Positions 2,248-44,099 of a stretch of 45,992 bases of DNA are shown here, piece after piece (position 1 is the stretch's first letter; every line of letters starts with the position of its first letter). Origin of the DNA: a virus; IMG/VR virus record IMGVR_UViG_3300046558_000413, positions 1-45,992 of that record. The stretch is one strand, 5' to 3'. The translations under genes and the position numbers were made by a program. The notes beneath the pieces were generated by a model. That model searched no databases and was not told the DNA's origin. It was given only the letters and a program-made list of their open reading frames with translations.

Positions 2248-2517
2248 TTAGGCTGCTCTCCCCATCAGTTTGTTCTGTTCTCTGGTTGCTTTTTCTCGCT
2301 GTCGATCAATGTAGTCGGCAAGGTCTTTCAGGTAAATTCCCAGAGCCGCTTTTTGGCTATCTGCGCCAAGGCGAACAACGGGGATATCAATCTCCCCATC
2401 CAGTCGCTTGCGTTTGAATTTTTCGACGGTTAAGTGCATATAGTCTGTGCACACCCGATCAAGTGGGATGACAGCTTGGCCATCGTACTGAGCCATGAGT
2501 AAAAACAACGTGTTCAT
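2248..2517 (-). CDS. Pyocin activator PrtN family protein (copy 1)
   Basis: An 89-aa protein of the PrtN family. The N-terminal two thirds carry the usual pattern: a short hydrophobic start (NTLFLLMAQY), VIPLDRVCTDYMHLT, a basic KFKRKRLDG turn, then IPVVRL and a YLKDLADYID helix. PrtN of P. aeruginosa activates pyocin genes by binding upstream P-boxes. Phage-borne relatives sit in early operons and may act as activators or excisionase-like factors; which applies here is not visible. Last gene of the leftward early operon, its ATG overlapping the stop of the PAPS-reductase-like gene by 4 nt, so translation is coupled. A second, diverged family member lies in the same operon at 4392-4709. Confidence 0.85.
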   Translation of the reverse strand: MNTLFLLMAQYDGQAVIPLDRVCTDYMHLTVEKFKRKRLDGEIDIPVVRLGADSQKAALGIYLKDLADYIDRQREKATREQNKLMGRAA

Positions 2518-3506
2518 GCTGCCTCCGTCATATCGAGTGGCTCCAAACTGTTATCACAAAGTCCGTATGCACTTGCGCAGGCTTTATCATCAGTAGTGAT
2601 CATAAGATCGTACTGAATTCCGCCTCGGGCTGTCTTCGACCACTCGACGGCCTGGCGAATGCTGGCTATCTCCATCACTTCGATAGCGGTCATGCCCGCG
2701 ATTGAACCTTTGGGGTGTTTAGCGTTGGAGCCTGCAAAGAAGGTGGCAGCGCCGCATTTACTGGCCTGCTGCACCGTGCGTTCCCAACGGTCAATTCGGT
2801 CGACTACCTCGGGGAACCGCACAGCAATCTGGCGTAATTCGTCCTTGCGGCAGTTGATGCACGGCATGCAGCCGACACGGCCCATGCCTTGGGAATACAG
2901 AGGGTTCGGCTTGATACCCATGTACCTATGTGCCTCGAACACGGCCGGGATATCCCATTTCAAGATCGGCCGGTAGTTGAATAAGCCGCCGCCAACCTCG
3001 TCGCATTCCGGTAGATAGCGTCGGTTTAGCGACTCATCCGCCCGAACGCCCTGCCAGCTGATTAGCATGTCCCCTTTGTCCATCATCGGCATGATGACTT
3101 GCTCAAGCATGGGGTCGCGTTTTAGCTCCATGGTGCAGAATTGGGCCTTACGGCTGGGGAATCGGCCCTTCCAAATGCATAGGTCTAGGAACGGGTTACC
3201 TGTAGGTACCAGCACGTCCAGCGCGGCCAGTACGACGGACTCAGCAATGCCCTGCTCACGCCATTTTGTTTCGATGAACAGTCGCTTACCTGCGATCTGC
3301 CGGGAAAAGTTAGCTTTGACCTTGGTAATCGTTACGCCCGTTGCTTGTTCGAGGTAGTCCAGGTACTGATACGTCTGGTCATGTTCGTTGCCGGTGTCAG
3401 CAAAGACGGCTTTCAGGTTCTGGGCTTCCAAGGCTATGGCAACAAGCAGGGTTGCGGTGCTGTCTTTGCCGCCGGATACGCTGATGATGTTATGGGTGTT
3501 CATCAC
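2514..3506 (-). CDS. Phosphoadenosine phosphosulfate reductase family protein
   Basis: A 330-aa PP-loop protein of the PAPS reductase/ATP-pyrophosphatase superfamily. The nucleotide-binding loop SGGKDS is at residues 11-16. Cys124 together with Cys213, Cys216 and Cys219 (the last three in GCMPCINC) could hold an iron-sulfur cluster, as in DndC-type members of the superfamily. Phages often carry such proteins. Proposed roles are sulfur metabolism or sulfur-based nucleic-acid modification, but nothing here fixes the substrate. It overlaps both neighbours by 4 nt (PrtN-like gene downstream, 125-aa unknown upstream) in the leftward early operon. No dnd-like partners are nearby, so a complete phosphorothioation system is not supported. 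Confidence 0.82.
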   Translation of the reverse strand: MMNTHNIISVSGGKDSTATLLVAIALEAQNLKAVFADTGNEHDQTYQYLDYLEQATGVTITKVKANFSRQIAGKRLFIETKWREQGIAESVVLAALDVLVPTGNPFLDLCIWKGRFPSRKAQFCTMELKRDPMLEQVIMPMMDKGDMLISWQGVRADESLNRRYLPECDEVGGGLFNYRPILKWDIPAVFEAHRYMGIKPNPLYSQGMGRVGCMPCINCRKDELRQIAVRFPEVVDRIDRWERTVQQASKCGAATFFAGSNAKHPKGSIAGMTAIEVMEIASIRQAVEWSKTARGGIQYDLMITTDDKACASAYGLCDNSLEPLDMTEAA

Positions 3507-7463: not shown

Positions 7464-8111
7464 CTATAAGTCGGATATTTTCCATCTTGCTCTGCCGCAG
7501 ATACTCCACTCTTCCGTCATTCGAATGATTCGCTCAGGCCAGTCAGGGTTGAGTGCATACAAGTACTGCTCGCCACCTTCTTGTTTTAGCTGTTTAAGAG
7601 TTGCAGCTTGATCTCTGCTTCTCTTCGCGGCTACAAAGTGCCCAGGTAACGCCTCAAGTGAAGGGTCGATTACTATCTTATCCCCCTGCATAAATTTTGG
7701 TTCCATGCTCATACCCTCTACTCGGAGTATGAACGCGCGGGGACCAACGGGGCCTGGTGCATCGATCCATTCCTCTGCGTCTCTAGGGTCAAAGCTGCCA
7801 TGAGATTCGCACCAGCTTCCTGCGGCAATTGATCCTATAACTGGCAATTTACGTCCTGTATGGCTTAGCACTGTCGCGTTGTTGAATTCTCCTAGCCCGT
7901 AGGGCATGTCGAGATATCCATTGTGCAAATCGAGTGCTTTCTCTATCTCTCGAGCGATTTGATCGCCAATGCCTTTGGAGGGGTTTTTACCGCCAAAGGC
8001 GCTTACCTGGGCAGGAGCTTTGCCCAAGAGATCAGCGATATCAGTCAAGCGCAGCTTTTTCTCTGCCAAGACTCTTCGGAAATTTTGGAGCCGGGTATCT
8101 GAGATTTTCAT
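7464..8111 (-). CDS. CI-type prophage repressor, S24/LexA family
   Basis: A 215-aa repressor. Residues 1-65 form a helix-turn-helix DNA-binding domain (LTDIADLLGKAPAQVSAF). Residues 90-215 form a self-cleaving S24 peptidase domain with the cleavage pair Ala97-Gly98, nucleophile Ser135 in EGMSMEP and general base Lys173 in TLKQL. It should hold the lytic genes off and autocleave on RecA activation during DNA damage. It is divergent from the Cro-like gene. Operators at 8130-8146 and 8170-8186 lie between them, and a third is at 5965-5981. The 475-aa ORF follows directly downstream. The Shine-Dalgarno sequence upstream of the ATG is weak. Confidence 0.93.
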   Translation of the reverse strand: MKISDTRLQNFRRVLAEKKLRLTDIADLLGKAPAQVSAFGGKNPSKGIGDQIAREIEKALDLHNGYLDMPYGLGEFNNATVLSHTGRKLPVIGSIAAGSWCESHGSFDPRDAEEWIDAPGPVGPRAFILRVEGMSMEPKFMQGDKIVIDPSLEALPGHFVAAKRSRDQAATLKQLKQEGGEQYLYALNPDWPERIIRMTEEWSICGRARWKISDL

Positions 8112-34006: not shown

Positions 34007-34570
34007 ATGTCCATCACTGATCAACAACTGCAAAGCATCATGCCCAACGCCCGCCGACAAGCGGGCGTTTTTGTATCCGCCCTCAACGCAGCCATGGCCC
34101 ATCGACAGATCAACACGCCGAAACGCCAAGCCGCGTTCCTGGCCCAGATCGGTCACGAGTCGGGTCAGTTGCAGTACGTCCGCGAAATGGGCGGCGACCA
34201 ATACCTGAGCAAATACGACACCGGCAACCTGGCTGCGAAACTGGGCAACACGCCGACAGCGGATGGCGATGGCCAGCGCTATCGCGGTCGCGGCCTGATC
34301 CAAGTGACCGGCCACGACAACTACCTACGCTGCAGCTTGGCGCTGTTCGGTGATGAGCGATTGCTGCGCACGCCTGAATTGCTGGAGCTGCCGCAGTGGG
34401 CCGCCGAGTCGGCTGCATGGTTCTGGTCAGTGAATGGGTTGAACGCGCTGGCCGATCAAAATGAATTCAACACGATCACCCGCAGGATCAATGGAGGTCT
34501 CAATGGCCTGCAGGATCGGCTGGAGTTGTGGGGGCGGGCGAGGGCGGTGCTATGCGTCTCGGCGAACTGA
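34007..34570 (+). CDS. Endolysin, glycoside hydrolase family 19
   Basis: 187 aa, a GH19 chitinase-like muramidase that cuts peptidoglycan. Motifs: INTPKRQAAFLAQIGHESGQLQYVRE (catalytic Glu in GHES near residue 50), YRGRGLIQVTGHDNYLRCS near 98-112, and a C-terminal TRRINGGLNGLQDRLELW. No signal peptide, so export depends on the holin. Overlaps the Rz gene by 19 nt. Confidence 0.93.
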   Translation: MSITDQQLQSIMPNARRQAGVFVSALNAAMAHRQINTPKRQAAFLAQIGHESGQLQYVREMGGDQYLSKYDTGNLAAKLGNTPTADGDGQRYRGRGLIQVTGHDNYLRCSLALFGDERLLRTPELLELPQWAAESAAWFWSVNGLNALADQNEFNTITRRINGGLNGLQDRLELWGRARAVLCVSAN

Positions 34571-35091
34571 TACCGGCGCCGTATCGGCTGCTGGCGAGAG
34601 GCGTGCTGCTGGCCGTCTTGGTCGGTGGTTCTGTGGCCACTACCTGGCAAGTACAGGATTGGCGCTACGGCAAACAGCTCGCAGAGCAGGCCCAACTCCA
34701 CACCGAAACCCTCAACCAACTGAATCTGGCCTCGGCCGCGCAACAGCGTGCCGAACAGGACAAACGCCTCGCGCTTGAGCAGCGCTTGGTTAACAGCGAA
34801 CAAACCCATTACCGAGCCCTGAGCGATGTCCAACGTGATCAAAGTCGCCTGCGCGACCGCCTTGCCACTGCTGATCTGCGCCTGTCAGTCCTATTCGACG
34901 CCACCACCGGCGCCGGCAACGGATCGGTGTCAGCCACCACCGCCACCGGCGGCGTGGTTCATGGCCCCACAAGAGCCGAACTTAACCCAGCGCATGCTCA
35001 ACGAATTATCGGAGTCACCGATGACGGCGACCGGGGGCTGATCGCATTGGCTGCGTGCCAAGGTTATGTCAAAGCGATCACTTTCCAATGA
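34552..35091 (+). CDS. Inner-membrane spanin Rz
   Basis: 179 aa from ATG 34552. One N-terminal transmembrane segment (about 14-36, LLARGVLLAVLVGGSVATTW) and a periplasmic coiled coil (about 40-115, LAEQAQLHTETLNQLNLASAAQQRAEQDKRL). This is the i-spanin layout that bridges to Rz1 and fuses inner and outer membranes at lysis. The Rz1 gene is nested in another frame, as in lambda. Confidence 0.9.
   Translation: MRLGELIPAPYRLLARGVLLAVLVGGSVATTWQVQDWRYGKQLAEQAQLHTETLNQLNLASAAQQRAEQDKRLALEQRLVNSEQTHYRALSDVQRDQSRLRDRLATADLRLSVLFDATTGAGNGSVSATTATGGVVHGPTRAELNPAHAQRIIGVTDDGDRGLIALAACQGYVKAITFQ
34826..35041 (+). CDS. Outer-membrane spanin lipoprotein Rz1, nested in Rz
   Basis: 71 aa, wholly inside Rz in another frame. 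A short signal sequence ends in the lipobox LLICAC (lipidated Cys at about residue 20), then a Pro-rich stretch (STPPPAPATDRCQPPPPPAAWFM) and EPNLTQRMLNELSESP. These are hallmark o-spanin features. Confidence 0.9.
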   Translation: MSNVIKVACATALPLLICACQSYSTPPPAPATDRCQPPPPPAAWFMAPQEPNLTQRMLNELSESPMTATGG

Positions 35092-35118
35092 AAAAAGCCG
35101 GGTTTCCCCGGCTTCTTC
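35091..35118. terminator. Bidirectional terminator at the end of the late operon
   Basis: AAGCCGGG (35095-35102), loop TTTC, CCCGGCTT (35107-35114). On the minus strand the hairpin is followed by six T residues, so it is a strong terminator for leftward transcription from the small peptide gene at 35121-35204. On the plus strand it closes the lysis genes. Confidence 0.8.
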
Positions 35119-35120
35119 TA

Positions 35121-35204
35121 TCAGGCAAGCAACAGTGGCAGTACCTCTTGAAGCAGACGAACCACCTCAATTGCCAAGATCAACATCAAATGGCTAATGG
35201 ACAT
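35121..35204 (-). CDS. Candidate 27-aa TisB-like membrane peptide
   Basis: Minus-strand frame of 28 codons starting ATG at 35204 with GAGGA 8 nt upstream. The peptide (MSISHLMLILAIEVVRLLQ..., ending PLLLA) is almost entirely hydrophobic with Glu, Arg, Gln and Glu spaced to one face of a helix, like TisB-type toxins. The same frame is open back to an ATG at 35276 (51 aa), but the internal start has the better ribosome site. A hairpin (35238-35263) lies in its leader and a strong terminator directly follows. Function is inferred from these features only; similarity to a known toxin family is not established. Confidence 0.5.
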   Translation of the reverse strand: MSISHLMLILAIEVVRLLQEVLPLLLA

Positions 35205-35237
35205 TTTTGCATCCTCTTCGTGATGCTCAGTCACCAA

Positions 35238-35263
35238 GCCCTTAGTCGCAAGCGACCAAGGGC
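35238..35263 (-). other. Hairpin in the leader of the small peptide gene
   Basis: GCCCTT-A-GTCG (35238-35248), loop CAAG, CGAC-C-AAGGGC (35253-35263): ten pairs with one mismatch. It ends about 20 nt before the Shine-Dalgarno of the 27-aa frame. Structured 5' leaders that hide the start are usual in type I toxin mRNAs. Confidence 0.5.
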
Positions 35264-35282
35264 CATGGCTCACCATCCATGA

Positions 35283-36440
35283 TCTATGCTACTTTTGATT
35301 CGCGAGAATCTGTGAAGCCAGCATCATTTCGGTGCCGGATCGGCCTAAGCGTTAACGATCCGTGGTTTTGCAGCGAGGCTGGAGGGTTGCCGCCCTTCAG
35401 CTTTTTTTTGCTTTTTTTTCTTACTTTCGTTTTTTCCTTTCATCAAACCGACAGGGGCCGTCGCCGGAATCTCAAATGAGACGTGGCGTTTGGTTCTGTG
35501 TGGCTGATGGGAGTGATCTTAGAGCGGGCTTTAAAACTCGTCAATCGCGACCACGGTCCTATGGTGGAAAAACTGAGACACTAAAAAAAACGTTTTTTTA
35601 TATGTTTTTGTTTCTCTCTGAAATGTCTGGAGGCCTTGATTTGTAAGGGTTTTGAAGGTTTTCATTGTTGTTTTTTTTGCTGTTTTAGAACAGCTCATTA
35701 AAACCCTAATTTAATAATGTAGAACCGCCTTTAATCTCTGTTTGTGTTTGTGCTTACACTACTGAGTTTGATATCTAAAAGGTGGGATGGCCGGTCGTCG
35801 GATTTATTGTTGGGGTATTTGTGTTGATCTGGTGTTTTAAATAACGCGGAATGTTTGTCTATACAGCTTAGTTTGTTTTTTATGTAGATGTTGAAATCTC
35901 GTGATCCGCTGCAGCCCACGTCATCCGTGGCTTGTAGCGTAATTGGCTTTCGCTAGATATACCCCTAAGACATTCTCAATCATCCAGAAAATTAAAAAGC
36001 TTGCACAAATGCATTTTTTAGACCAAAATCGCCTCAAAGACCTACCTTTGGTCATTTTCTATACCATACGCAATCCCACGTTCTTGGGACCCCTAGCGCT
36101 AGCTTTGTCCAAAGCGTGTATTTTCTAATACACTCCTCGTATCCAGATTCTTCAAGTCCCTCCTCTTCGTAAAAAAAATATTTTTTTTTGAAAAAAAACC
36201 GCTCTGAATCGATTTTTTGCTTCGTCTCCGCGTCCTCCAGCGTTGGACGATGAGCTCTGCTGGCCTGAGTGGGGGGCGAATTGCTCGTCTGAAGGGTATG
36301 CATCGTTTGCCGGACAGTCTCCAAGTTGCGGGTGCAGAGCGCGAGGTGGAAGAGGGAGCTCTTATCTGATGTGGTAATGCTCACGCTTAGGTACCCCCGT
36401 CGGTCTGATATTTCCTGCAAAAATTGACCGGAAGGCTTTC
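35283..36440. other. AT-rich gene-poor stretch between lysis genes and umuDC
   Basis: About 1.1 kb with long T- and A-runs (35399-35438, 35581-35610, 36168-36200), clearly lower in GC than both sides. Open frames here (for example 36052-36420 minus, 35731-35919 minus, 35943-36128 plus) have no ribosome site, rely on TTG or are interrupted by homopolymers, and match nothing I recognise. I see no RNA gene. It may be decayed cargo or hold a small RNA. Confidence 0.5.
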
Positions 36441-36450
36441 AAAAAGTTAA

Positions 36451-36466
36451 CTGTACATTTGTACAG
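36451..36466. promoter_or_regulatory. LexA operator (SOS box) upstream of umuDC
   Basis: CTGTACATTTGTACAG, a perfect CTGT-N8-ACAG palindrome, 19 bp before the umuD-like ATG. It places the umuDC pair under LexA control, so it would be induced by the same DNA damage that inactivates the prophage repressor. Confidence 0.85.
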
Positions 36467-36484: not shown

Positions 36485-36910
36485 ATGAGTTACTCAATTC
36501 TAGGTCCCATCAGTGAGGGCGGTTCGAAGGTGCCGCTATGTCTCTTCCGAGTCCCGGCCGGCTTTCCCTCGCCGGCTGCGGATCACATTGAAGCGCAGAT
36601 ATCGCTAGATGAGGTGCTGAACATTCGTGCGCCACACGTCTACCTGGTGTCACTCGCTGGTGAAAGCATGCAGGGCGCGGGGATCTATGAGGGAGACTTG
36701 GCCATAGTCGATCGATCAATTGAGCCCGCCCACGGCCACATCGTCATTGCGCTGTTGAACAATGAGCCCGTATGCAAGCGCCTATGCCTTCGCGGTAGGG
36801 AGGTCATCCTGATGTCGGAAAACCCCAAGTACCCGCCACGGTACGTCCTTGAGGGTGACGAGCTGTCGATTTGGGGGGTGATCACCAGCAGCGTGCGCAG
36901 CCATGTCTAA
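36485..36910 (+). CDS. umuD: UmuD-like protein, S24 peptidase
   Basis: 141 aa, normal for UmuD. Self-cleavage pair Ala25-Gly26 before FPSPAADH, nucleophile Ser61 in GESMQGAGI and base Lys98 in VCKRL. After RecA-stimulated cleavage UmuD' would join UmuC as DNA polymerase V. Controlled by the SOS box at 36451. The stop overlaps the umuC start by 8 nt. Confidence 0.93.
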   Translation: MSYSILGPISEGGSKVPLCLFRVPAGFPSPAADHIEAQISLDEVLNIRAPHVYLVSLAGESMQGAGIYEGDLAIVDRSIEPAHGHIVIALLNNEPVCKRLCLRGREVILMSENPKYPPRYVLEGDELSIWGVITSSVRSHV

Positions 36911-38180
36911 CGAGCGGCCGGTATTCGGCCTGATCGATTGCAACAGCTTCTATGCCAGCTGCGAGCGCGTGTTTCGCCCTGACCTCGCCAAGGTGCCTAT
37001 CGTGGTGCTGTCGAACAACGACGGCTGCGTCATTGCCCGCAGCTACGACGCAAAGCCCTACGTGAAAATGGGCGAGCCGTACTTCCAGATCAAGCACAAA
37101 CTCAAGCAGCATGGCATCGTCCCGTTTTCCTCGAACTATGCGCTTTACGGTGACATGAGTGAGCGTGTCATGACACTGATCGAGTCGATGGTACCCGCCG
37201 TTGAGGTCTACAGCATCGACGAAGCCTTCGTCGACCTCACCGGCATTAATGACCTGGACTCGCTCGGCCGCAAGATCCGCAGCCAAGTGCTGCGCTGCAC
37301 GGGCATCCCGGTCGGTGTCGGCATCGCGCATACCAAGACCCTAGCCAAGCTGGCCAACCACACCGCCAAACGCTTGCAGGCGCAAACCGGTGGCGTTGTG
37401 AACATCTGCGACCCAATCAAGCGCGACTGGGTGCTGCGTAATACGGACGTAGCGGAGGTGTGGGGAGTAGGCCGGCGCATGAAAATGCACTTGGATGGCA
37501 TGGGGATCAAGACCGCAATGGATCTGGCCAAGGCCGACCCGTGGACGTTGAGAAAAAACTTCAGCGTGGTGATCGAGAAAACTGCCCGGGAATTGGCCGG
37601 CACGCCGTGCCTGGAGCTGGATGAGCCGGATCCGCCAAAGCAGGAGATCTGCTGCAGCCGGATGTTCGGTAAAAGGCTGAAGGAGCTGACCCCAATCAAG
37701 GAAGCGGTGGCGACTTACATGATGCGGGCATCGGAAAAGCTCCGGGCACAAAATTCGCTGTGCAAGAAGATTCGGGTCAGCATCCGCACCGGAATGTTCA
37801 ACCCCGATGAGGCTAAATATGCGAATGGTGTCGTGGTGGATCTGCCTTACCCAACTGATGACGTTCGGCTTTTGACCACTGCAGCCGTCAATGCACTAGA
37901 TCGTGTATTTCGTCCTGATTTCAGTTACAGCAAAGCGGAAGTCATCCTACTGAATCTATGCCAACCAGGTGAATACACAGACGATCTGTTCGCCACTTCT
38001 CAGCCTACTGAGGCGACGAGAGTGATGGCGGTGCTGGACGAAATCAATGGCCGGTGGGGGAGGGGGACGCTCCGGGCTGCGAGTGTGCCGAGCAATCCAG
38101 ATTGGGGCATGCGACGGGAAATGATGAGCCAAAGCTATACCACGCGCTTGGACCAGTTGTGGACAGTTAACTGTCGATAA
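36903..38180 (+). CDS. umuC: UmuC-like Y-family DNA polymerase
   Basis: 425 aa, full length. N-terminal FGLIDCNSFYASCERVFRPDL holds the first catalytic Asp, YSIDEAFVDLTGI the DE pair, then VGVGIAHTKTLAKLANHTAK. The C-terminal part includes SYTTRLDQLWTV, usual for UmuC. It performs error-prone translesion synthesis with UmuD'. Being on the phage side of the tRNA-Ser end at 38254, the pair appears to be carried by the prophage near its right end; it could also be an older insertion next to it. Confidence 0.93.
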   Translation: MSNERPVFGLIDCNSFYASCERVFRPDLAKVPIVVLSNNDGCVIARSYDAKPYVKMGEPYFQIKHKLKQHGIVPFSSNYALYGDMSERVMTLIESMVPAVEVYSIDEAFVDLTGINDLDSLGRKIRSQVLRCTGIPVGVGIAHTKTLAKLANHTAKRLQAQTGGVVNICDPIKRDWVLRNTDVAEVWGVGRRMKMHLDGMGIKTAMDLAKADPWTLRKNFSVVIEKTARELAGTPCLELDEPDPPKQEICCSRMFGKRLKELTPIKEAVATYMMRASEKLRAQNSLCKKIRVSIRTGMFNPDEAKYANGVVVDLPYPTDDVRLLTTAAVNALDRVFRPDFSYSKAEVILLNLCQPGEYTDDLFATSQPTEATRVMAVLDEINGRWGRGTLRAASVPSNPDWGMRREMMSQSYTTRLDQLWTVNCR

Positions 38181-38976: not shown

Positions 38977-41121
38977 ATGGATCATGACACGCTAGTAAAC
39001 CATATACGCGGATTGAGCAAAGTTCTTTTTGATGCGGCCTGCCATATAGTGCTTAAAGAATACTTTAGAATTAACGCCATCAATGTTGATGGTTCAAATG
39101 ACGGAGGCGCAGATTTTATACGCGTGGGTAGCGATGGAGCGCGAAGCGATGCCATTTACCAGATCACTACACAAAAAGAAAAAATCCCCGAAAAGCTTGG
39201 GAACGATATTGGAAAAGCAATTGAAAAACTTTCCGCCAAGAGATTTTATTTTTTTACTACGTTAAATATTAGTGAAACCGTATCTCGAAAATACGAGTTA
39301 AAATACTCACAGGAATTAGAGATACCTGTTTCATTTTTTAGCGCAAGACATGTTGCGGAGTTCCTGCTCGATGGAAATCTTTTAAATCGTTTCTTGGATG
39401 CAGTAAACTACCCTCTTCCTAGGTCATTCGATGGGACGGCTGACTACAAAGAAATGGCGCTTCACAGCTATACTATAATGTCTGATGACGCAAAAGTCAT
39501 GCGAGATGGAGTATACGACGACACAATCCTCTTCGTCTTATCTGATAGCGGAGAGCTTGAGCAAGGCGAGTTGGTTGCGCGGGTTTTGGAATTTCTTAAC
39601 ATAAAGTCCGACAAGGAAGAGTATCTAAAAAACCGCATTGGTGCTTTGTTTTCCAAACAATCTATTCAACGCGCTGAGTCGGGCGCCGTCGCTCTATCCT
39701 CAGGCTCGATGCAAGATATTCAATCACGGAAAAGGATATACGAACAAGAACTAAGTGATCTTGCAGCCGTACAGATTGACATCATGCGAAAAGATTTCAA
39801 AGTCGACTGGAGTATCGCCGAGTCAAAAGAAATTAGCATTTATATCGCCGACGCTTACATTGGTCAACAAATGGAACTCTTAGACGATATAAAAGCCAAA
39901 ATCTCCGTTGAACCTATTCTGAACCAGCGTGATCGCGATCAAAATACTATACGAGACTATATCCGCGACAGATCTGGCCTATCCAAAGGAAGAGCGGCCA
40001 ATGCCGCCACGGCACTATTACACAGTGCATCAAATCATCCGCTTATCATAAAATTAGCTAGAGCATCTGTATATGTGGCTCTTGAGGGGCGAAGTGCAGT
40101 AGCTTCAGCAAAAGCTCTTGGTGCAAGCAGATGGAGCGATTTTAATATATTAATCGAGCCGTCGGTAGCAATCCACTGGATATGTTCTCGCTTGTATGAT
40201 GGTGATGTAAACGGCTTTTTCAGTATCAGCAAAAAGTCAGTAGAGCGATCAATTAGCTTAAGCGCATCTGCATTTATACCGTACTTTTACATCAACGAAT
40301 GCGCATCACATCTATTGTGGGCAAGAAAATACTCTTCATTGGAGGATGTTGCTACCCCAGAAGAACTTCAATATTCAAGAAATGCATTCATCGCAAACTA
40401 TTATGCGCTAAAAGCTCAGGGCGTTAGGGTCCCTAATACGATACTTGAATATCTAAAAACCTTTAGCTCTGCTGTTCTAATTGAGCGTTCTAGCAGGAAG
40501 GATTGGGTCCGAGCAGTCATGATCGATATCCAGTCAATACTTAGCAAGTCAGGGGTTCAGTTTATTGAAGTGCCATTTTATAAACCCGAGGATTGTGTCA
40601 GCTTTGAACGTGAGTACACGCACTATCTAACTTCGCGTAACCAATCAAAATCCCGGCACCTTATGGATCACGACGTGTGGGCATTGCAATTCACGCACAA
40701 TGAAGTCATAAACGAAAATAAGCATTGGGCGGTCTTGACATTTGATAATGCCATGGTAAGGGTCGCCGCAGGCGCCAGCCATGCAGGATGGGTTGTGACC
40801 CCATATAAATTCCTTGATATTACGGCATCATCTCAGTCGTTGTCAGACACTCAATATGTGTCTCTCGTTCACAGTTTGGCCGTATCAAGTGCAAAAACAC
40901 TCTCTGTTGCGGCGAGAATAATTGATAGGGTGGTGAGCTATGCGTCCGATCAGTTGCAGAACTGGGAGTTCAAAAATGACTTTGAGAATTTCAAGAAAAA
41001 TTTGATATCCGAGCTTGATGATAATGATACCCCCGGCGAAGATGAAGAGTTGGAGGTAAACGCCAAGGTCGACGAGTTCTTGCTTGCTAAAGGGATCGAT
41101 ATTTCGAAAGATGAAGAATGA
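38977..41121 (+). CDS. Unknown 714-aa protein, possible nuclease/PIN-like defence effector
   Basis: Three parts. Residues 1-110: helical start, then NVDGSNDGGADFIRV and a strand IYQITTQKEK, a D-x16-Q-x-T arrangement (Asp46, Gln62, Thr64) like restriction-endonuclease-fold domains, though the usual E-x-K is absent. Residues 120-480: mostly helical, with a disrupted winged-helix-like stretch around 180-245, no family recognised. Residues about 555-630: MDHDVWALQF ... WAVLTFDNAM ... GWVVTPYKFLDI, which resembles a PIN domain (acidic cluster, then LTFD). The last 30 residues are acidic. Lower GC than the host. It lies alone, bracketed by 24-bp inverted repeats and followed by a strong terminator. 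A solitary anti-phage effector is plausible but unproven. Confidence 0.6.
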   Translation: MDHDTLVNHIRGLSKVLFDAACHIVLKEYFRINAINVDGSNDGGADFIRVGSDGARSDAIYQITTQKEKIPEKLGNDIGKAIEKLSAKRFYFFTTLNISETVSRKYELKYSQELEIPVSFFSARHVAEFLLDGNLLNRFLDAVNYPLPRSFDGTADYKEMALHSYTIMSDDAKVMRDGVYDDTILFVLSDSGELEQGELVARVLEFLNIKSDKEEYLKNRIGALFSKQSIQRAESGAVALSSGSMQDIQSRKRIYEQELSDLAAVQIDIMRKDFKVDWSIAESKEISIYIADAYIGQQMELLDDIKAKISVEPILNQRDRDQNTIRDYIRDRSGLSKGRAANAATALLHSASNHPLIIKLARASVYVALEGRSAVASAKALGASRWSDFNILIEPSVAIHWICSRLYDGDVNGFFSISKKSVERSISLSASAFIPYFYINECASHLLWARKYSSLEDVATPEELQYSRNAFIANYYALKAQGVRVPNTILEYLKTFSSAVLIERSSRKDWVRAVMIDIQSILSKSGVQFIEVPFYKPEDCVSFEREYTHYLTSRNQSKSRHLMDHDVWALQFTHNEVINENKHWAVLTFDNAMVRVAAGASHAGWVVTPYKFLDITASSQSLSDTQYVSLVHSLAVSSAKTLSVAARIIDRVVSYASDQLQNWEFKNDFENFKKNLISELDDNDTPGEDEELEVNAKVDEFLLAKGIDISKDEE

Positions 41122-41648: not shown

Positions 41649-43073
41649 CTAGGGCCGCGTTATCAGGTATCTGCCCTCAATAGTGAACCCACAAGAGCGA
41701 ACTGAGCGGCGGAGCGACAGAACGATTTTGAGTTGCTCATCCAGTACTAGAGCTTCTGACTGAATTGTCAGCGGCCATGGCTTGTGTCCCAAGCTCTCGA
41801 AGAACCCCCCTAAAAACTTCGCTAAGGTCTCGTCCGATAGCTTCTGATGGAACAGTGCGTTGGATAGCTGGACAGTGACTTCGAACTCGTCCGCAATCGC
41901 TTGCACAAGCCGGACACGCGTTACCCGCGCTTTCAATTTGGCGAGTTGTTCGCGGTCTATACAAGTGTTTATTGAGATAGGAGTAGGGTGGAATTCTCGC
42001 GAGTGTTCGCCATCTTCCAGCGTCATCGCCAGAAACGCTACAGCCTCCCAGCCTTCATCAAGCTTATCGATGATTGCAGCGTAAGCATCAAACGACTTTC
42101 GATCTTCTGGTTTAGGCATAATGTCGCGATGGGCGGTGAGCTCGCTAAAGCAAACCTCAAATGACCCGTTGGAGGGCCTGACCTTGAATCTCCAGTTCAA
42201 GGAGTGTGCTTTGGATATCGTATGCACCACCGTTATGGATTTTTCTCGTCGCTCGTACTCTACGTCACTGCCAGTAGTTACGAGGATGAAAGCATGCGTA
42301 TTCAAACGGTCTTTCATGATGGAGCCGTCTTTTGGGTTGCGCGCGCTGAACTGAACACCGGTAGCCGCATGCCCTATGCTGGTCATGGGAGGTTGTGGTT
42401 CTCGGTAAGTCTCGAACTGTGCATCCCATGAGGCAACCACATCGCGCCAGAGCTGGTCGCTCGCACCCGAATGACGAAGCTCGGTGGTGATGATTTCACG
42501 GATAGTCTGACTTAATCGCGGAGTGAGCGCAGCCTCGAATGGTGGTGTTGGTAGGTCTAGTTCTGTGATAGACAGTGCATTCTCGATTTTCCGATAGAGA
42601 GCATTTACCTCGGTTTTAATCTTGTCTTTATCTAAGTCCGGCATGTGCGCCCGAACAATTTCATCCACGCGCTGGACCCCTACCCTGGCTGTCAGATATC
42701 CGAAAGTTGGCGATTCAATCGTTAATCCGTGCGTGAAGACTCGGACACGTTTCATTGCCAATAGCTGCTCAGGGGGATAATTGAATTGAAATTGATCTAC
42801 CTGCACCGCGTGTGTCGGGCACAGCCACACACCGTTAGTTTCGGCTGCCTTTTCCTCATCAGATAACTCTTGGCCGGGCCTCGGCCCATTTGGTGACGCA
42901 GCATAGATATGAGCTGCGACACCGGCTCCTTTCAATACAATCGTTCCGTTTTCCAGAACGGCTGGGCCCGTGGAGGGATAAAGGCATTCGGGAAACGAGC
43001 ACATGTGACCGGCCGTACCGGCAAGGATGTTACGTGTCTTCTTGGAGAAGTTGACTCTGCGTGATACTGACAT
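41649..43073 (-). CDS. HNH-domain protein, possible defence effector
   Basis: 474 aa. The N-terminal 95 residues form an HNH-type zinc-bound nuclease centre: Cys25 and Cys30 (CSFPEC), His55 in VAAHIYAASPNGPRP, Asn80-Gly, Cys85 and His88 in NGVWLCPTHAVQVD. The AHI...NG(I/V)WLC..H signature is shared by a group of HNH proteins often found in defence contexts. Residues 100-474 are not recognised and would be the sensor or specificity part. The terminus faces the 714-aa gene convergently. There is no strong ribosome site at the ATG (AACGG only). Confidence 0.68.
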   Translation of the reverse strand: MSVSRRVNFSKKTRNILAGTAGHMCSFPECLYPSTGPAVLENGTIVLKGAGVAAHIYAASPNGPRPGQELSDEEKAAETNGVWLCPTHAVQVDQFQFNYPPEQLLAMKRVRVFTHGLTIESPTFGYLTARVGVQRVDEIVRAHMPDLDKDKIKTEVNALYRKIENALSITELDLPTPPFEAALTPRLSQTIREIITTELRHSGASDQLWRDVVASWDAQFETYREPQPPMTSIGHAATGVQFSARNPKDGSIMKDRLNTHAFILVTTGSDVEYERREKSITVVHTISKAHSLNWRFKVRPSNGSFEVCFSELTAHRDIMPKPEDRKSFDAYAAIIDKLDEGWEAVAFLAMTLEDGEHSREFHPTPISINTCIDREQLAKLKARVTRVRLVQAIADEFEVTVQLSNALFHQKLSDETLAKFLGGFFESLGHKPWPLTIQSEALVLDEQLKIVLSLRRSVRSCGFTIEGRYLITRP

Positions 43074-43895: not shown

Positions 43896-44099
43896 ATCAC
43901 TGAAACCCAGTGATCGGGTTTGGTAGCCCGCTTCGTGTCTAGATGCATCGCATCACCAATTTCAGTCGCTTTTCCAGGACTCGGATTTCATGGTGGTCAT
44001 GCGTGGGGCCCATTCGTGGGCGCCGGGTTCTAGTGCGACCGGTCTACCAACCCGCGTATGGCCGCCACCCATCGTTTGGTAGCGTGGGTGATGGCTCCT
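43896..44099 (+). promoter_or_regulatory. Structured leader upstream of DUF6124 gene
   Basis: Several inverted repeats: ATCACTG/CAGTGAT (43896-43914), CGGG/CCCG around TTTGGTAG (43915-43930), CTACCAA (44043-44049) with TTTGGTAG downstream (from 44076), and GCCGCCACCCA with TGGGTGATGGC in the same span. The last two cannot form together, so alternative folds are possible. The motif GTTTGGTAGC occurs twice. I recall similar leaders before this gene family in Pseudomonas, but cannot cite a named RNA. Confidence 0.5.

Follow-up and report, generated by a model that had tools for sequence, protein, structure and literature searches.

The window (the whole stretch of DNA that was analysed, 45,992 bases of an IMG/VR virus record) is a temperate prophage by gene content. 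Pseudomonas is supported as its host by relatives in P. chlororaphis EA105 and P. anatoliensis P141. A gene for a 27-aa hydrophobic peptide, unannotated in the prophage, sits with its control elements in the interval that runs from the spanins to umuDC. The surrounding genes are:

1-1089: integrase
7464-8111: S24 repressor
elsewhere in the window: VapE-type primase, large terminase, portal and tail genes
34007-34570: GH19 endolysin
34528-35091 and 34826-35041: embedded spanins (Rz-like by PHROGs)
36485-38180: UmuD/UmuC

The predicted peptide mRNA

The following elements make up the unit on the minus strand:

35516-35544, minus strand: predicted sigma-70 promoter TTGACG-17-TAAGAT, the best promoter-like site of the region
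35205-35509, minus strand: 5' leader of ~300 nt in a predicted mRNA (35509-35091) of ~420 nt
35238-35263, minus strand: leader hairpin GCCCTTGGTCGCTTGCGACTAAGGGC, read from the sequence
35212-35216, minus strand: ribosome binding site GAGGA, 7 nt before the ATG
35121-35204 (stop included), minus strand: gene for the 27-aa hydrophobic peptide MSISHLMLILAIEVVRLLQEVLPLLLA, with ATG at 35204-35202 and synonymous bias
35091-35117, minus strand: GAAGCCGGGGAAACCCGGCTTTTTT, a GC stem with T6 that forms the intrinsic terminator of this mRNA, conserved in close copies

An earlier note on this DNA had described a hairpin, GAGGA, a 27-aa hydrophobic ORF and a T6 terminator on the minus strand after the spanins, and all of them were found at, or within a few bases of, where it had placed them. 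Its limits for the unit (35091-35276) were too narrow: the predicted unit extends ~230 bp further at the 5' side, from a promoter at 35544-35516, and the peptide mRNA would start near 35509.

A spanin query returned 80 related viral loci, six of which carry the unit at 92-99% DNA identity, and pattern scans added three more (L085, L094 and L095), so that nine near relatives and, with the window, ten close copies were available. A first narrow pattern had missed all relatives because it required Glu at residue 20, where the relatives have Asp. The sequence TTGACG-17-TAAGAT is invariant in 10/10 close copies and the DNA just upstream of it diverges; over the same ten copies, conservation is stronger from the peptide up to ~35550 than past that point. 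The whole predicted transcript folds with z = -3.58, and the two arms of the leader hairpin change together in L003 (GCAC../..GTGC). GAGGA is kept in nine of the ten close copies, with a weaker TAGGA in L021, and two divergent copies described below have AGGAG (L106) and AAGGA (L177) at this place. In both of these the terminator of the peptide mRNA is different in sequence and still present.

SOS control of the peptide was rejected because a CTGT-N8-ACAG scan of the window found no LexA box at the peptide promoter (35516-35560). A 33-aa lysine-rich frame within the leader (35345-35446) was likewise discarded, as A-run indels between copies break it. A switch in which 5' processing exposes the SD gained no support from a partition-function computation, the predicted SD accessibility being barely altered by 5' trimming.

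The terminator at 35091-35117 has near-exact matches of 22-28 bases in ~60 of 399 Pseudomonas genomes; it is thus widespread, and its constancy is unexplained. Most matches in the DNA search of these 399 genomes consisted of the terminator sequence alone.

Conservation of the peptide

The peptide has a GRAVY of 1.71 and is amphipathic, with a helical moment within the top 5% of its own shuffles; its polar residues E13, R16 and Q19 are spaced as a patch. It is intact in 9/9 near relatives, with conservative changes. Conservation of the peptide and its ribosome site in related phages, on which the earlier note had let its proposal depend, was therefore found for both, the ribosome site being kept in 8/9.

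The frame can be extended upstream to 51 aa. This extension contains a stop in L021 and a one-base deletion, hence a frameshift, in L094, and the 27 aa are intact in both. The 51-aa frame was accordingly ruled out as a real product, and translation must start at the inner ATG.

Over the 81 coding bases, the window and L177 differ at 7, 2 and 15 bases in codon positions 1, 2 and 3 (15 of 24 differences at third positions), and the window and L148, another divergent copy, differ at 10, 7 and 17 (17 of 34). Nei-Gojobori dN was lower than dS in every pair tested, with dN/dS well below 1, values that are indicative only since dS is saturated. By these patterns of substitution, purifying selection acts on the peptide in close as well as in distant copies, and the identity of the peptide is 48-70% in the divergent lineages.

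A candidate structured RNA opposite the leader

On the plus strand, the earlier note had suggested an antisense RNA over 35240-35280. No such feature is visible there, and a strong one lies further along, opposite the middle of the leader:

35285-35290, plus strand: candidate -10 (TATGCT), weak and with no good -35, located 6 nt ahead of the 5' stem-loop of the antisense RNA
35297-35409, plus strand: candidate antisense (antitoxin) RNA of ~113 nt, with a 5' stem-loop, closing stem P1, hairpins P2 and P3, a terminator hairpin and T8
35375-35412, plus strand: intrinsic terminator of the antisense RNA, with T8, found by scan; stem and T8 kept in L106 and L177

Over its whole length the candidate RNA is complementary to the mRNA leader, in a stretch that lies ~90-205 nt before the start codon. 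The plus strand of 35297-35412 folds with -51.4 kcal/mol (z = -4.56, no shuffle equal), against z = -1.07 for the minus strand. The MFE of the antisense strand is below that of the sense strand in 8/8 copies, the sense strand being also fairly stable in L095, L177 and L106. The loop of the 5' stem-loop is of the GNRA type (GCGA or GCAA), and the P3 loop reads CUAA, CUGA or CUCA in the window, L177 and L106, which we take to fit the YUNR U-turn of antisense RNA loops. The TATGCTACTTTT block before the 5' stem-loop is identical in L095, L106 and L177, and TGTGCT is found in L003, L012, L020, L021 and L085.

A covariance model was built from five close copies and used in place of a MAFFT alignment, because the latter misaligned the closing stem of the RNA. 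The model finds L003, L177 (7.5e-18), L106 (1.8e-7) and, weakly, L148 (0.007). Each match lies upstream of a peptide and on the strand opposite to it, and those in L177, L106 and L148 lie in different DNA. In nine aligned RNAs 96.3% of cells are paired, as compared to 47% after sliding the partners by one base, and three pairs are altered on both sides, a number reached by 2/500 shuffles; these pairing counts lean towards the model, because the alignment was fitted to it. G-U pairs account for 38/297 cells, and the other strand would have A-C mismatches there, an indication that the structured RNA is the plus-strand one.

The RNA was present in 6/6 spanin-linked loci with the peptide and in 0/74 related loci without this peptide type, some of the 74 being partial. 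It is present in every close carrier, and RNA and peptide occur together in three divergent lineages. The independent lineages carrying the RNA number only about four. From this comparison of sequences, the antisense RNA at 35297-35409 is probably real. Rfam 15 gave no match at gathering score; a sub-threshold match to ctRNA_pGA1 (18.9 bits, gathering 45) covers the plus-strand terminator.

Divergent copies and a wider peptide family

The copy L106, in Pseudomonas genome G068, was found via its leader at 69% identity. It encodes MTPLELAWVFAIEVVRLLQIVLS, of 23 aa, and has its own SD, terminator and promoter, TTGACG-17-TAATCT, at a similar distance from the peptide. The viral contig L177 encodes MTTGHLLLILAIEVVRLLQGIVPLLFA and has TTGACG-17-TACATT, again at a similar distance. 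L148 (G249) encodes MNTKDLWLTLAIEVVRLVHDVILLVFV, and no promoter of the TTGACG-17 type was found in its locus. From these three copies it follows that leader and peptide travel together through divergent sequence.

Relaxed patterns and HMMs added MIVELIERTLTLAIEIVRLIQMLIRD (L184), MIVELSLILAIEIVRLIQRLIRN (L183), MKFISSARLCLILAIEIVRLLQFFAKKFFGDN (L182), MSTFNLFLILCIEVVRWIHLLQLEKLLQY (L190) and MKLFELFLTLCIEIVRLLQMISRM (L189), and MKNISYARLCLIFAIELIRLIQLLVKKIPW (L040) was matched at E = 2.8e-8 though absent from the model. Family members are 23-32 aa long and share the core [AC]IExxRL[LI]Q, whose I, E and R are invariant in 15 sequences. Nearly all occupy one slot, convergent with a spanin or with a D12-class adenine methylase that follows the spanin (PF02086 in L184), and in those loci that extend far enough, UmuD lies ~0.7-1.3 kb upstream of the peptide and is encoded on the other strand. 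More distant peptides of the form ..YIET[IV]RL.. stand at a similar place in L002, L048, L025 and L057. Their homology is only suggested, E being 0.08-0.17 for L002 and L048 before inclusion and L025 and L057 being matched only later. Members outside subfamily A have other leaders, and the RNA covariance model gave no convincing match in them.

In the genomes sampled, matches to the family are confined to Pseudomonas/Pseudomonadaceae and are mostly prophage-borne. A search of 185 class-wide genomes returned only the known P. chlororaphis copy, a weak match at E 0.03, which falls within a 212-aa frame, being left uncounted. Pattern matches in other phyla and most weak HMM matches were frames inside longer genes and were discarded. 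BLAST of the unit, or of its L106 and L184 relatives, against phage and plasmid collections gave no match, the protein searches being blunted by the low-complexity filter.

Two minor observations were made within the family. In L191 (G653), a related peptide, MENIKLLMILAIETIRLISQIIKLFQ, starts right at the end of a same-strand upstream gene, unlike the prophage slot. In the methylase-facing loci L180, L183, L184, L185 and L186, CTCC(A/G)(A/G)G near the predicted mRNA 5' end covaries, judged by eye only, with the SD CYYGGAG; this suggests that the mRNA 5' end sequesters the SD in that subfamily, which we do not claim.

Comparison with known systems

No family in Pfam, NCBIfam (up to E = 10) or PHROGs matched the peptide, there was no match to Hok, Ldr, Ibs or Fst, and the core peptide motifs did not occur in the literature searched. 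The earlier note had likened the peptide to TisB. In length and pattern the likeness stands; kinship does not, since the family HMM scores TisB (0.0 bits) and DinQ (0.8 bits, reached by 1449/4960 shuffles) no better than shuffles and the promoter is without a LexA box. Homology to DinQ/TisB was therefore rejected.

Resemblance to both systems is one of layout. E. coli dinQ/AgrB, a type I system, likewise has a 27-aa single-helix membrane peptide with an E/R/Q polar patch, which in DinQ is E17, R20 and Q24 (PMC3567139), an internal start within a longer frame, and an RNA that pairs to a long leader. However, AgrA and AgrB are encoded upstream with partial complementarity, whereas the RNA described here lies directly opposite the leader, and dinQ has a LexA operator, which the present promoter is without. 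In E. coli tisB/IstR-1, also type I, TisB is an amphipathic hydrophobic peptide of 29 aa, and both loci combine a long structured leader with an RNA that pairs far upstream of the ribosome site (PMC4147584, PMC8309996). The present unit differs from it in having no sequence homology to TisB, no SOS box at the promoter, no conserved upstream tisA-like ORF, and a cis-encoded, fully complementary RNA. TisB moreover has lysine/arginine near its ends, and the present peptide has neither there.

IstR-1 blocks tisB by pairing far from the ribosome site, where it competes with a standby ribosome, and RNase III cuts the duplex; ohsC, orz and agrB pair similarly, and tisB/IstR-1, zor/orz and dinQ/agrB share the long-leader layout (PMC4147584). 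Unlike IstR-1, ohsC, orz and agrB, the RNA found here is encoded directly opposite its target. In this it resembles hok/Sok, ldrD/RdlD and bsrG/SR4, some of them prophage-borne, in which a fully complementary antisense RNA lies opposite the toxin mRNA; in contrast to these, it spans the mid-leader and not the ribosome site, a mok-like frame or the 3' end.

At sequence level, the locus has two general features of a type I system: a small hydrophobic peptide of the single-helix type with its own SD, and a candidate structured antisense RNA encoded alongside. As no database family takes it in, and as TisB and DinQ are non-homologous and LexA control is lacking, we file it by layout with the type I systems, as a putative toxin and a putative antitoxin RNA that would each found a new family.

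Interpretation

The best explanation, and one that we consider probable, is that the prophage carries a type I toxin-antitoxin-like module from a previously undescribed family, with putative toxicity and expression. The ORF, the promoter and the terminators are conserved, the antisense structure carries compensatory changes, and RNA and peptide co-occur. The type I toxin-like reading proposed earlier thereby receives good support from anatomy and conservation (peptide, long structured leader, own promoter and terminator, antisense RNA), apart from the place it gave to the antisense RNA.

In such a module we infer transcription, pairing, translation control, membrane insertion, toxicity and trigger as follows. 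The minus-strand promoter would make the ~420-nt mRNA, with its ~300-nt structured leader and the 27-aa peptide, and the peptide would form a single amphipathic helix within the inner membrane. The plus strand would yield the ~113-nt structured RNA across the mid-leader, ended by its own terminator. Being perfectly complementary to the mRNA, this RNA should pair with the leader; pairing would take place well upstream of the ribosome site and would either prevent translation or make the duplex a target for RNase III. If the antisense RNA were lost, e.g. by prophage loss or a change in transcription, the peptide would be released, and it might then depolarise the membrane and stop growth.

Several points count against the module: the unsupported role of the leader fold in translation control, the fitting of the RNA alignment to its model, the small number of independent lineages, and the lack of the terminal lysine/arginine seen in TisB. 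A further one is the antisense promoter, which is weak and has a degraded -10 (TGTGCT) in 5/10 copies, so that the RNA might instead be the end of read-through from the late operon. On that account, transcripts of spanin or Dam would run on across the peptide gene, which is convergent with them, and end at 35375-35412. The plus-strand RNA would then be the 3'-terminal part of the late (lysis) operon transcript, and the peptide, silenced by read-through during lytic growth, would be a lysogeny-only gene. In keeping with this, the RNA follows late genes (spanin or Dam) in the same orientation in the window, L177 and L106, no promoter that is both strong and conserved was seen for it, and the spanin-proximal terminator has a poor plus-strand T-tract. 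We nevertheless regard such an origin as unlikely, since mere termination does not call for the closing stem and hairpins that are conserved ahead of the terminator. Moreover, L106 and L177 retain the TATGCTACTTTT block that immediately precedes the 5' stem-loop, the RNA is absent from the 74 related loci with the same spanin, and the downstream context differs in L148.

The peptide might also be other than an addiction or stress toxin, namely a lysis-timing or superinfection-exclusion membrane peptide (antiholin-like or Sie/Imm-like) tuned by the antisense RNA. Its fixed position beside late genes across nearly the whole family, its single short membrane-type helix and its carriage by a prophage would suit that role. 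Yet it has its own promoter and is predicted to be transcribed against the lysis genes, some members are outside the late-gene setting (L187/L148, L191), and a short hydrophobic peptide with an antisense RNA is the standard type I make-up; we rate this role as somewhat unlikely. That the plus-strand RNA is itself the functional product, a trans-acting sRNA opposite an incidental ORF, seems very improbable: strong as its fold and conservation are, the ORF has synonymous bias and constant length, a ribosome site precedes it in nearly all copies, and the peptide family also occurs with other leaders.

A broader reading, doubtful but possible, concerns the large, fast-diverging, unnamed peptide family, which many members of one Pseudomonas prophage group carry at a fixed slot facing the late operon and flanked by the late/lysis genes and umuDC, and takes it as a prophage switch. 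Late transcription or a dedicated antisense RNA would here silence a membrane-active peptide of the lysogen, which might serve, e.g., against superinfection or in the killing of cells in which the phage is lost or mis-timed.

A 2022 survey describes its type I finds in P. aeruginosa as likely unreported there before (PMC9424990), and according to a 2023 review the ten characterised P. aeruginosa pairs are type II (PMC9966142). These sources suggest that Pseudomonas type I systems have received little study. Genes as small as the 27-aa ORF escape annotation. The peptide family and its linked RNA family, restricted to Pseudomonas relatives in our samples and mostly prophage-borne, are concrete candidates that can be tested quickly, and they raise the question of what role a convergent membrane peptide beside the lysis genes has for a temperate phage.

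Other elements of the prophage

A LexA-like box (CTGTACATTTGTACAG, 36451-36466) lies directly before umuDC and is the sole exact CTGT-N8-ACAG of the window. Near the right end of the prophage, 43986-44072 (plus strand) matches the C4 antisense RNA (RF01695, 79.8 bits), a P1/P4-type immunity RNA. A PAPS-reductase-domain protein (2514-3506, minus strand) has partial similarity to SspD/BrxP models of phosphorothioation/BREX-type systems. For the 714-aa protein encoded at 38977-41121 (plus strand), Pfam and PADLOC gave no match and PHROGs only an insignificant one (E 0.37). Its gene adjoins another (41649-43073, minus strand) for a 474-aa HNH-like protein, possibly defence cargo, which over its N-terminal ~110 residues matches PDC-M68A and the HNH portions of SAVED-HNH/endonuclease effectors (PADLOC, 5e-19).
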